Origin: a virus
Direction: 5' to 3' (one strand)
Virus record (IMG/VR): IMGVR_UViG_3300033153_011945
Coordinates: 1 to 32,580 of that record
DNA: 32,580 bases
Shown here: one piece after another, positions 5,225-7,317 of the stretch
Position numbering within the stretch: position 1 is the stretch's first letter
Layout: every line of letters starts with the position of its first letter
Translations under genes and position numbers: made by a program
Notes under the pieces: model-generated
What the model was told of the DNA's origin: nothing
The model's input: only the letters and a program-made list of their open reading frames with translations
Database searches by the model: none

Positions 5225-5506
5225 TTACGTAGTTGGTTATTTAAAAACTTAATAGATTGCAAGGCTGAAAAAGCTAAGCCTTGAAGTAGCCGGAGAATTA
5301 TCCCGAGCTCCAAAGATGAACCCGAATGATGATAAAATTTAGATAACAACAAAAAGGATTTTTTGGGGCAATAAGGTGGCGGCAAAGAAATAGTGAACTG
5401 TTTCATGCTAATTTAAAAAATATGCCAAGGGTGGCAGGTTAAAAACTGTCACCATTGATGTGTTTTTTCAAACTAATTTTTTAACCTATTTAAAAGGAGC
5501 AGTAAA

Positions 5507-5671
5507 ATGAAAACGAAAGAAAGTAAAAATCAAAGTCAAGTTTTGTATTTGAGTCCGGTTCCTGGTTACAATAACAGGAAACTTATAAAGAGCGGTTCCT
5601 GTCCTGAATGTTATAGAGGACAAGGTCAATATCATGAACCTGGTTGCTCACTTGATAAATCAAAATGTTAA
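5507..5671 (+). CDS. Micro-ORF, 54 residues, Cys-containing, upstream of ribozyme 1
   Basis: ATG 5507 follows a textbook AAAAGGAGCAG Shine-Dalgarno in the repeated leader. The product is basic at the N-terminus and carries a C-terminal cluster GSCPECYRGQGQYHEPGC, i.e. CxxC plus a His and a further Cys, suggesting a small metal-binding loop, and it ends KSKC. No family is recognised. The TAA stop (5669-5671) directly abuts the first base of the hammerhead ribozyme at 5672, so a terminating ribosome would cover part of the ribozyme. It is likely the first gene of the rightward early operon. Confidence 0.65.
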   Translation: MKTKESKNQSQVLYLSPVPGYNNRKLIKSGSCPECYRGQGQYHEPGCSLDKSKC

Positions 5672-5724
5672 GACCGAAACGCCCGCAAGGGCGTCTGCCG
5701 GTTGTAGCCGGTACTGATGAGGTC
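5672..5724 (+). ncRNA. Hammerhead ribozyme, type II topology (copy 1)
   Basis: All core elements are present in order. Stem II 5' strand GACC (5672-5675), GAAA (5676-5679), stem III CGCCC/GGGCG (5680-5684/5689-5693) closed by a GCAA tetraloop, UC at 5694-5695, stem I TGCCGG/CCGGTA (5696-5701/5708-5713, one G·U), CTGATGA (5714-5720), stem II 3' strand GGTC (5721-5724). A5679-U5694 supplies the conserved A15.1-U16.1 pair, and the predicted cut is after C5695 in a GUC triplet. The open helix is stem II, which defines type II. The upstream product would end in a GNRA hairpin and the downstream product would start with stem I and a 5'-OH. Stem II is only 4 bp, so in vivo activity may depend on loop contacts. 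Confidence 0.92.
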
Positions 5725-5757
5725 AATTTTTTAACCTATTCAAAAAGGAGCAAGAAA

Positions 5758-5919
5758 ATGGAAACCAAAAAGAAAACCAAAAAAGTACCCTCACTCAAAA
5801 CTATGGAAAGATGGATGGCCAATGGGGCAGCACGAGCAACCGATGGTTGTAAAGTAGAACCTGATGGGACTTGTCCTCATGGTAAACAAAGTTGGCTACT
5901 TGTTTTAGGTCTCATATAA
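5758..5919 (+). CDS. Micro-ORF, 53 residues, between the two ribozymes
   Basis: ATG 5758 has an AAAAAGGAGCAAG Shine-Dalgarno in the second copy of the duplicated leader; a longer frame from 5665 would start inside ribozyme 1 and is rejected. The product has a Lys-rich N-terminus (METKKKTKKVPSL) and a conserved-looking C-terminus, ATDGCKVEPDGTCPHGKQSW followed by LLVLGLI, with two Cys and one His. From memory, small proteins with a ‘DGC-VEPDG-CPHG-SWLL-LGLI’ signature are scattered in phage and bacterial genomes without known function. If both ribozymes cut, this gene lies alone on a ~250-nt RNA (5696-5945) with a hairpin at each end. Confidence 0.75.
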   Translation: METKKKTKKVPSLKTMERWMANGAARATDGCKVEPDGTCPHGKQSWLLVLGLI

Positions 5920-5921
5920 AA

Positions 5922-5973
5922 GACCGAAACGCCCGCAAGGGCGTCTTACCGTAAAACGGTAACTGATGAGGTC
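5922..5973 (+). ncRNA. Hammerhead ribozyme, type II topology (copy 2)
   Basis: Same architecture as copy 1: GACC (5922-5925), GAAA (5926-5929), stem III CGCCC/GGGCG with GCAA loop (5930-5943), UC (5944-5945), stem I TTACCG/CGGTAA (5946-5951/5957-5962, six perfect pairs, TAAAA loop), CTGATGA (5963-5969), GGTC (5970-5973). Stem II, core and stem III are identical to copy 1 while stem I differs in both strands and stays paired. That is compensatory change, the best internal evidence that the fold is selected. The predicted cut is after C5945. It starts 2 nt after the TAA of the 53-residue micro-ORF, mirroring copy 1. Confidence 0.93.
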
Positions 5974-5977
5974 AGAA

Positions 5978-6255
5978 ATGAAACTTTAATTTAAAGGAGC
6001 AAGAAAATGGAAAAGGCATTAACTTACAATTACAGAGGTTTCAAATTTTATATTGAAACAATTCAAAGTCGGTTTGGGGTATTGTTTAGAAGCTCAAATA
6101 ACATTGGCGAACCTGTAATTGATTGTCCTGCTTACAAAACATTGAAGGCAGCCAAACAAAACGCCAAGAAAATAATTGATGACTATATTAAGGATACCAA
6201 ATAGTTTGGTCCTTATTTAATGAAACTTTAATTTAAAGGAGCAAGAAAATGGAAA
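5978..6255 (+). repeat. 36-nt direct repeat, leader and start of two micro-genes
   Basis: An exact 36-nt repeat occupies 5978-6013 and 6220-6255. It covers an AT leader, AAAGGAGCAAG and the first codons ATG GAA A of the genes at 6007 and 6249. Exact identity, including codons, implies recent duplication or gene conversion of the translation-initiation unit. It could serve as a site of recombination that shuffles micro-ORFs. Confidence 0.85.
6007..6204 (+). CDS. Unknown 65-residue protein downstream of ribozyme 2
   Basis: ATG 6007 lies within the 36-nt repeated initiation unit, with AAAGGAGCA 7 nt upstream. The sequence alternates β-like segments (LTYNYRGFKFYIETIQ, FGVLFRSS) with a C-terminal Lys-rich helix (AKQNAKKIIDDYIKDTK). 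It contains one Cys and no transmembrane segment. The composition looks like a small folded cytoplasmic protein of the kind often seen as host-takeover genes, but I recognise no family. It is the first gene after the ribozyme-2 cut, so its transcript would begin with the stem I hairpin and a ~50-nt leader. Confidence 0.65.
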   Translation: MEKALTYNYRGFKFYIETIQSRFGVLFRSSNNIGEPVIDCPAYKTLKAAKQNAKKIIDDYIKDTK

Positions 6256-6422
6256 CGAAAGTGCTGAGCAAGATAGTGGTGCTTGGTGGACTTACCTTAT
6301 CCCCAGGAAAGCGATGCGGGATGTTTATTCCACACTCAGCAAATGTAGGGCTACACATAAAAATCTTACACTGCCTTGGAATGATGGAGGTTGCCGTATA
6401 TTACCGGCGGCGATGTTTATGA
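6249..6422 (+). pseudogene. Displaced N-terminal frame of the gene at 6314
   Basis: The strongest ribosome site here (AAAGGAGCAAG, 36-nt repeat unit) starts a 57-codon frame that begins METKVLSKIVVLGG and ends at TGA 6420-6422. Its first ~14 residues look like a normal protein N-terminus, but the rest overlaps the real coding frame of the 6314 gene, which is shifted by -1. It is most simply the original start of that gene, cut off by a small deletion near 6285. A genuine overlapping micro-ORF or a -1 frameshift cannot be excluded; I see no convincing slippery heptamer at the junction. Confidence 0.45.
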
Positions 6423-7006
6423 AGTATTCGGAAGCAATGCGGAAAGCCAAAACTGATTATGAGGAAGCCGTAAATGAATTTTTAAAAGGCTATCCTGATA
6501 TAATTGAGCATGCTCACGAACGGTTAGGCAACCTATTAAAAGGCAAAACCTTCCCCTCAGCTGCGGAAATCAAACATAAGTTTGGAGTAATTCAGGAAAT
6601 CTATCCGTTACCTGACTCTTCAGATTTCAGGGTAGATTTAGCGGGAGAGGACGTAAAAGAAATTCGTAATCAAATGAAAATATCCATAGATACTACAATT
6701 CAAAAAGCTATGACTGACATTTGGTTACGGCTTGCGGGGCTCATTGAAAAAGTAGAACAAACTTTAAAACAACCCAAAAAGGTTTTCAGGGATTCGCTTA
6801 TCAACAACCTTAAAGACTTCTGCGAACTTATACCCAAACTCAACCTAACCAATGATACTCAATTAGAAAGCATTAGGCAAGAAACCGTAAAAAGGCTTGC
6901 TCAACTAAAACCCGATAATTTGAGGGAAGGTAAACAAGAAAGAAAAGCAGCAGCAAAAACTGCAAAAGAAGTTTTGGAAAAAATGAAGGCTTATACAGAT
7001 ATATAA
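6314..7006 (+). CDS. Phage protein of unknown function (LPW-DG-RILPA family), probably N-truncated
   Basis: This 230-codon frame from ATG 6314 contains NLTLPWNDGGCRILPAAMF, then long amphipathic helices with a Lys/Glu-rich C-terminus. From memory, this motif marks a family of helical phage/plasmid proteins usually found beside a MoxR ATPase and a VWA protein, as here (7439, 8613). In that family residues like ‘LIDKEALKKI’ precede the motif. The frame upstream of ATG 6314 indeed reads TYLIPRKAMRDVYS, so conserved coding extends beyond the ATG. A start at 6314 with AGGAAAGCG as Shine-Dalgarno is possible, but the intact gene likely began at 6249 and has lost part of its N-terminus by a frame-changing deletion. 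Function unknown. Confidence 0.7.
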   Translation: MRDVYSTLSKCRATHKNLTLPWNDGGCRILPAAMFMKYSEAMRKAKTDYEEAVNEFLKGYPDIIEHAHERLGNLLKGKTFPSAAEIKHKFGVIQEIYPLPDSSDFRVDLAGEDVKEIRNQMKISIDTTIQKAMTDIWLRLAGLIEKVEQTLKQPKKVFRDSLINNLKDFCELIPKLNLTNDTQLESIRQETVKRLAQLKPDNLREGKQERKAAAKTAKEVLEKMKAYTDI

Positions 7007-7016
7007 TATAATTAGC

Positions 7017-7072
7017 GGGCCAAACCAAAAGGTGGAAGCATATTGCTGTGAGTTCGATTCTCACTTGGCCTT
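7017..7072 (+). ncRNA. Miniature tRNA-like element
   Basis: A 55-56 nt sequence folds as a shrunken cloverleaf. A 7-bp acceptor-like stem GGGCCAA (7017-7023) pairs with TTGGCCT (7065-7071, one G·U). A 3-bp ACC/GGT arm has a 4-nt loop (7024-7033), and a 4-bp AGCA/TGCT arm has a 3-nt loop (7037-7047). A canonical T-arm GTGAG-TTCGATT-CTCAC (7048-7064) completes it. There is no normal anticodon loop and no encoded CCA. The T-arm is exact enough that descent from a tRNA with an internal deletion is likely. It lies in the 110-nt gap between 7006 and 7117. It may be a decayed tRNA, a remnant attachment site or a functional tRNA mimic. Confidence 0.5.
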
Positions 7073-7116
7073 TGTAGTGTAAAACAATTTAACCCAAATT
7101 TGAAAGGAGCGGTAAA

Positions 7117-7317
7117 ATGAGAATCAAACCAACAAAACAAGAATTAAAAGCTTTACAGTATGCGGGGTTAATGGGGCATGAGTTTGTTTCTACCCGGAAA
7201 AATTCAGAAGTGCGGTCTGAATGTAATACTCTTGAGAGCGCAATAAAAGATGCGAAAGAAGTAGATGGGTCTGTTTTTCAACAACTACCAAAACGGCAGT
7301 GGATTAAAAGATTTTGA
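7117..7317 (+). CDS. Unknown 66-residue basic protein
   Basis: ATG 7117 follows GAAAGGAGCGG in the repeated leader style (AATTTAACCCAAATTTG). The product is basic and mainly helical (PTKQELKALQYAGLMGHEFV) with a single Cys, and ends KRQWIKRF. No family is recognised. Its last ~50 nt overlap a second frame starting at 7265. Position between the tRNA-like element and the MoxR gene gives no clear functional hint. Confidence 0.6.
   Translation: MRIKPTKQELKALQYAGLMGHEFVSTRKNSEVRSECNTLESAIKDAKEVDGSVFQQLPKRQWIKRF

Follow-up and report, generated by a model that had tools for sequence, protein, structure and literature searches.

Tandem Type II Hammerhead Ribozymes Lie Between Small Phage Genes and May Split Their Transcript into Short mRNAs

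Introduction

By sequence and structure, the window analyzed here (the whole stretch of viral DNA, 32,580 bases) carries two type II hammerhead ribozymes in tandem, separated by a protein gene of 53 codons (Table 1). We consider the best explanation for the pair, and a probable one, to be that a polycistronic transcript is divided at the ribozymes into short, shielded mRNAs; the activity, timing, stability and benefit are what we infer in this explanation. The window pair is itself an ordinary example, and its value lies in what comparison with other viral contigs brings out, namely a rule of placement, by which the ribozyme follows a stop codon and precedes the ribosome site and start codon of the next gene, and a ribozyme form that is missed by standard Rfam scans. 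This rule, together with the arrays described below for cultured phages, makes the idea of mRNA splitting directly testable.

Hammerheads clustered around single genes in prophages were reported by Perreault 2011 (PMC3088659), who measured cleavage in vitro for three tandem arrays and inside E. coli for one, and a 2017 review notes small, non-conserved ORFs with flanking hammerheads and treats the role of the ribozymes in bacteria and phages as an open question of the field (PMC6155905). The preliminary description of this DNA had called the pair unusual, which cannot be maintained: clusters around small (pro)phage genes have already been described, the present form occurs in at least 119 viral stretches, and several phages carry 7-12 copies. 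The type II hammerhead/small-gene kind is thus known, and what may be new, to our knowledge, is the stop-codon rule and the form that scores under the cut-off of Rfam.

Results and Discussion

Two Type II Hammerheads in the Window

Both copies contain every core base in the type II order (GACC, GAAA, stem III, UC followed by the cut, stem I, CUGAUGA, GGUC) where the preliminary description had placed them, and both contain the core that defines the hammerhead class, CUGANGA...GAAA...UH, as CUGAUGA, GAAA and UC. In the minimum free energy folds, stems I and III are closed by loops and stem II is open in both copies, giving a three-way junction. Between the copies, which are offset by 250 nt, a block of 27 nt comprising the 5' strand of stem II, GAAA and stem III is identical (5670-5696 and 5920-5946). 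Stem I has diverged and, as had been proposed, is still paired in the folds of both copies, its strands being UGCCGG/CCGGUA in copy 1 and UUACCG/CGGUAA, within a 7-bp fold, in copy 2. The core layout predicts the same two cleavage sites as were originally given, and the arrangement of tandem type II hammerheads among small genes is likewise supported.

Table 1. Coordinates of the ribozymes, flanking genes and leaders in the window
Feature	Position	Strand	Details
Type II hammerhead 1	5672..5724	+	RF02276 33.3 bits; model R1 54.8 bits; fold -25.5 kcal/mol
Hammerhead 1, stem II	5672-5675/5721-5724		
Hammerhead 1, GAAA	5676-5679		
Hammerhead 1, stem III	5680-5684/5689-5693		loop GCAA
Hammerhead 1, U and C before the cut	U5694, C5695		predicted cleavage 3' of C5695
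Hammerhead 1, stem I hairpin	5696-5713		18 nt
Hammerhead 1, CUGAUGA	5714-5720		
Type II hammerhead 2	5922..5973	+	RF02276 32.0 bits; model R1 70.7 bits; fold -22.3 kcal/mol
Hammerhead 2, stem II	5922-5925/5970-5973		
Hammerhead 2, GAAA	5926-5929		
Hammerhead 2, stem III	5930-5934/5939-5943		
Hammerhead 2, U and C before the cut	U5944, C5945		predicted cleavage 3' of C5945
Hammerhead 2, stem I hairpin	5946-5962		17 nt
Hammerhead 2, CUGAUGA	5963-5969		
54-aa ORF, 5' of ribozyme 1	5507..5671	+	TAA 5669-5671
Middle-gene leader	5725..5757	+	bracketing A5725; TTAACCTATT; Shine-Dalgarno AAGGAG 5745-5750
53-aa gene between the ribozymes	5758..5919	+	C-terminal motif GTCPHGKQSWLLVLGLI; TAA 5917-5919
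Third-gene leader	5974..6006	+	bracketing A5974; Shine-Dalgarno AAAGGAG 5993-5999
65-aa ORF, 3' of ribozyme 2	6007..6204	+	no hammerhead after
Shrunken tRNA-like cloverleaf (weak)	7017..7073	+	in the gap separating the 6314-7006 gene from the ATPase gene

In the Rfam check proposed in the preliminary description, the RF02276 model covers both copies end to end with E values of 7.8e-7 and 1.7e-6 (calculated for the 32,580-base record alone), but both scores stay under its gathering cut-off of 37 bits, so that a default Rfam scan would miss both copies. The window shares with the type II hammerheads of RF02276 and of Perreault 2011 the core, the permutation and the setting, in which hammerheads of the same strand cluster in the intergenic gaps on either side of a single small gene. 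The RF02276 consensus, however, has a stem II of 2 bp and, in most members, a pseudoknot between loop I and the 3' tail, whereas the window copies have a stem II of 4 bp with an A on both sides, a loop I that begins with U, and no pseudoknot; the scores fall under the cut-off because of these differences in stem II and loop I.

A covariance model, R1, was made from 26 aligned sequences from other viral contigs, with the window copies and those of a syntenic contig (L043) left out. The next-best site for this model in the window reaches 9.2 bits, in comparison to 54.8 and 70.7 bits for the ribozymes. All 390 of the 390 pair cells in these 26 sequences are standard pairs, and 10 of the 15 pairs show double-sided changes, a number equalled by none of 500 shuffles. 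We consider it extremely improbable that the copies are chance or decayed, inactive hammerhead-like sequences. Such a reading could draw on the Rfam scores below the cut-off and on the stem I of copy 1, which measures 18 nt as against 17 nt in 90 of 105 relatives and goes with a weaker R1 score than that of copy 2, but the R1 scores, the intact core and bracketing As, and the 0 descriptor matches in 0.95 Mb of shuffled loci argue against it.

A Recognizable Form of the Type II Hammerhead in Viral Contigs

The pattern GACCGAAAC...GTC...CTGATGAGGTC was found in at least 119 stretches of viral contigs, as against only 6 in 257 Gb of genomes from bacteria and archaea. Among the matches listed, stem II has an A directly before it in 105 of 106 unique R1 matches and directly after it in 99, and the first base of loop I is U in all 90 of the sequences with a 17-nt stem I, which may point to a U-A contact of the kind found in other hammerheads. 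The pseudoknot of the Rfam consensus was rejected for this form: complementarity of 4 bp or more between loop I and the 3' tail occurs in 7 of 90 relatives, against about 12 expected from swapped tails, and in the window copies such pairing comes to about 2 bp at most by eye. No RF02276 match reaches the cut-off in 15 other contigs holding dozens of these ribozymes, or in L043, and this form is thus hidden from default Rfam scans. Two or more copies occur in 23 of the 121 contigs with R1 matches, among the matches listed, with strands never mixed and with seven copies in some.

We tentatively take these sequences, at a little less than even chances, to be a widespread, phage-specific type II form that acts as stop-codon-coupled punctuation, joined to the end of one frame and to the ribosome site of the following one, and systematically splitting early operons into one-gene, two-hairpin mRNAs. 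The same joint reading would give this form a 4-bp, A-bracketed stem II, a U-first loop I, no pseudoknot, mostly sub-cut-off Rfam scores, and arrays that reach seven copies or more. As a separate observation, a hammerhead-like match of 28.9 bits lies at L150:5945-5994, on a contig of a Candidatus Baldrarchaeum assembly, and could come from an archaeal virus or from contamination.

Placement Relative to Stop and Start Codons

Placement was analyzed for 105 unique ribozymes with enough flank, among the matches listed, all found through one stem II sequence, in contigs that may be related and with heuristic gene calls. Taking open frames of 40 codons or more, and random same-strand positions as the null, we find that 83 of the 105 have an upstream stop whose end falls within -1 to +6 nt of stem II (null 2.9%). 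A Shine-Dalgarno-like site followed by an ATG lies 15-45 nt downstream of 82 (null 5.2%), and 68 of the 105 combine both features (null 0.25%). In 29 of the 105 the ribozyme begins with the G of a TAG stop. The window has stop-to-ribozyme gaps of 0 and 2 nt, the final A of the TAA of the 54-aa ORF doubling as the A that brackets stem II of ribozyme 1, and ATGs 33 nt past each ribozyme. The tight placement could be due in part to the compactness of phage genomes rather than to a need for cleavage at these positions. The text of Perreault 2011 makes no mention of such a rule for stop codons (PMC3088659).

Proposed Splitting of the Operon

In the explanation that we favor, each ribozyme, which fills the gap from the stop codon of a small gene to the Shine-Dalgarno site of the next, would fold during synthesis of the polycistronic RNA once the upstream terminating ribosome has departed and no longer covers stem II and GAAA. 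The cut would fall 24-26 nt past the stop codon and 61-62 nt ahead of the next ATG, such that both ORF ends and the ribosome site would remain whole after cleavage. The upstream mRNA would keep hairpin III beside its 2',3'-cyclic phosphate, and the downstream mRNA would start with a 5'-OH directly on hairpin I. Both new ends would carry hairpins because stem II is the open stem, an outcome that no permutation other than type II gives. The end hairpins have median energies of -10 kcal/mol (stem III, upstream) and -7.9 kcal/mol (stem I, downstream). With the operon split into short, shielded mRNAs, small exchangeable accessory genes, probably for host takeover, could therefore be expressed and decay independently. 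Some of the genes that flank the ribozymes belong to anti-restriction families, ArdA and Ocr-like. In favor of this reading we also count the core, folds, covariation and placement described above, the successive hammerheads of L043 (below), the arrays of cultured Streptomyces phages and the self-cleavage measured in Perreault 2011; the longer stem I and weaker score of copy 1 count against it. We note that 5'-OH ends are not always protective: in Bacillus, glmS mRNA is degraded once it has been cleaved.

The main rival, which we consider unlikely, is a translation-coupled switch, in which the terminating ribosome blocks stem II and GAAA, cleavage takes place only when upstream translation is low, and the resulting change in the expression of neighboring genes serves regulation rather than constitutive splitting. 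The placement of stem II at the stop in 83 of the 105 ribozymes speaks for this, since a terminating ribosome must cover the 5' strand of such a ribozyme, and gene control was discussed as a possible hammerhead role in Perreault 2011 (PMC3088659). Against it, no alternative fold or conserved ligand-like domain is seen, and the proteins neighboring the ribozymes, 143 in number, are diverse, with no family represented more than five times.

Genes and Leaders Around the Pair

The pair starts a rightward cluster of replication genes, and for this reason the early-operon setting given to it in the preliminary description is plausible. The leader of the middle gene is repeated ahead of neighboring genes, and an exact 37-nt repeat (5977-6013 = 6219-6255) encloses the third-gene leader and brackets gene 3. 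No hammerhead precedes the gene after the 65-aa ORF, which has the second copy of this leader, or the gene at 7117, and therefore not every junction needs a ribozyme. A search with the leader motif reached only hammerhead-free contigs of distant relatedness.

Relatives in other contigs were found for just one of the small genes, the 53-aa one: these lie in 19 viral contigs, none with a hammerhead nearby. For the 54-aa ORF no relative was found in viral contigs, and none was found for the 65-aa ORF. PADLOC gave nothing for the three small proteins, and neither did PDB for the 53-aa protein. A ribozyme function specific to particular genes was rejected on the hammerhead-free relatives of the 53-aa gene and the lack of a dominant family among the flanking proteins. 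Separate promoters for each gene are not supported, as sigma-70-like sites, the one promoter type covered, are not commoner than in shuffles.

Two further features were observed nearby. The 119 nt preceding the first small gene (5418-5536) are 84% identical to L043, contain a hairpin (GGTGGCAG/CTGTCACC), and are possibly a leader or control element of the operon. The 6314-7006 gene shows an apparent N-terminal truncation, its relatives being about 60 residues longer there, and within 6219-6450 the copied 37-nt leader and an ATG at 6249 join this gene out of frame.

Syntenic Relatives and Exchange of Small Genes

The L043 contig is syntenic with the window, with an ATPase that is 80% identical and at least five further genes in common, and at the equivalent place three of its genes in a row are each followed by a hammerhead. 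One of these reads CUGACGA instead of CUGAUGA; position 7 of the hammerhead core is free. A decayed-looking fourth hammerhead lies behind a later gene.

The site and the stem III sequence are common to L043 and the window, and the small genes between the ribozymes are unrelated. This would suit cassette boundaries, repeated 50-nt elements that provide homology for swaps of small genes while cleavage lets inserts work anywhere, as would the occurrence of the 53-aa gene elsewhere without hammerheads and the bracketing of gene 3 by the exact leader repeat. We nevertheless regard this reading as quite improbable: adjacent copies have a common stem III in only 2 of 30 cases and differ in stem II in 20 of 33, which is poor for homologous recombination, and neither covariation nor an intact catalytic core would be called for in elements that only marked boundaries in the genome.

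The mismatch of stem II strands in 20 of the 33 adjacent pairs also makes it very improbable, in our view, that the 250-nt RNA excised from between the copies is closed into a circle, as happens in retrozymes and viroids, and serves as a circular RNA or mRNA. In the window the stem II strands are identical in both copies and the excised RNA could rebuild a hammerhead across its ends, but in the mismatched pairs it could not, and circular or spliced products were sought and none found in Perreault 2011 (PMC3088659). Retrozymes and viroid-like circular RNAs resemble the window in having same-strand tandem copies a few hundred nt apart; their hammerheads, however, are of types I and III, surround non-coding repeats and yield circular RNAs, whereas the phage copies are separated by differing protein genes and often have no common stem II.

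Two other contigs, L123 and L124, are syntenic with the window and free of hammerheads; both have long hairpins at the junction before the ATPase gene (fold z of -6.6 and -5.6). At this junction L043 has a hammerhead, in the region that matches the cloverleaf of the window, which retains a T arm and acceptor stem with the other arms short and scores 18.2 bits with the Rfam tRNA model (cut-off 29; fold z = -1.4). We infer that differing RNA structures at one junction fit a role in processing or end protection. In place of the small genes of the window, L123:3780-3935 holds an ORF with a tract of repeated Cys-Ser-Xaa (NCSYCSRCSYCS...).

Hammerheads in Other Known Viruses

In the haloviruses HF1/HF2 (PMC3088659) a viral hammerhead also lies just upstream of a gene, for a helicase, in the early-gene region, but unlike the window it is a single copy with a variant core and no tandem partner.

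A BLAST search of a phage collection with a single hammerhead is insensitive, yet led to cultured Streptomyces phages. RF02276 matches, most above the cut-off, are gathered in one arm of the genomes of R4 (9), Daudau (9) and Paedore (12), all on the coding strand and commonly 0-2 nt past a stop codon. Within our incomplete coverage of the literature, no paper joining Streptomyces phages with phage hammerheads was found. These arrays resemble the window in having many same-strand type II hammerheads in successive gaps between small genes in one arm, and differ from it in being of the Rfam-detectable form, GC-rich, and present at 9-12 per genome. R4 (L154), whose array lies at 41.8-49.5 kb, has a laboratory host, Streptomyces coelicolor A3(2). 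Several of the R4 hammerheads fall inside annotated CDS, which suggests wrong gene starts.
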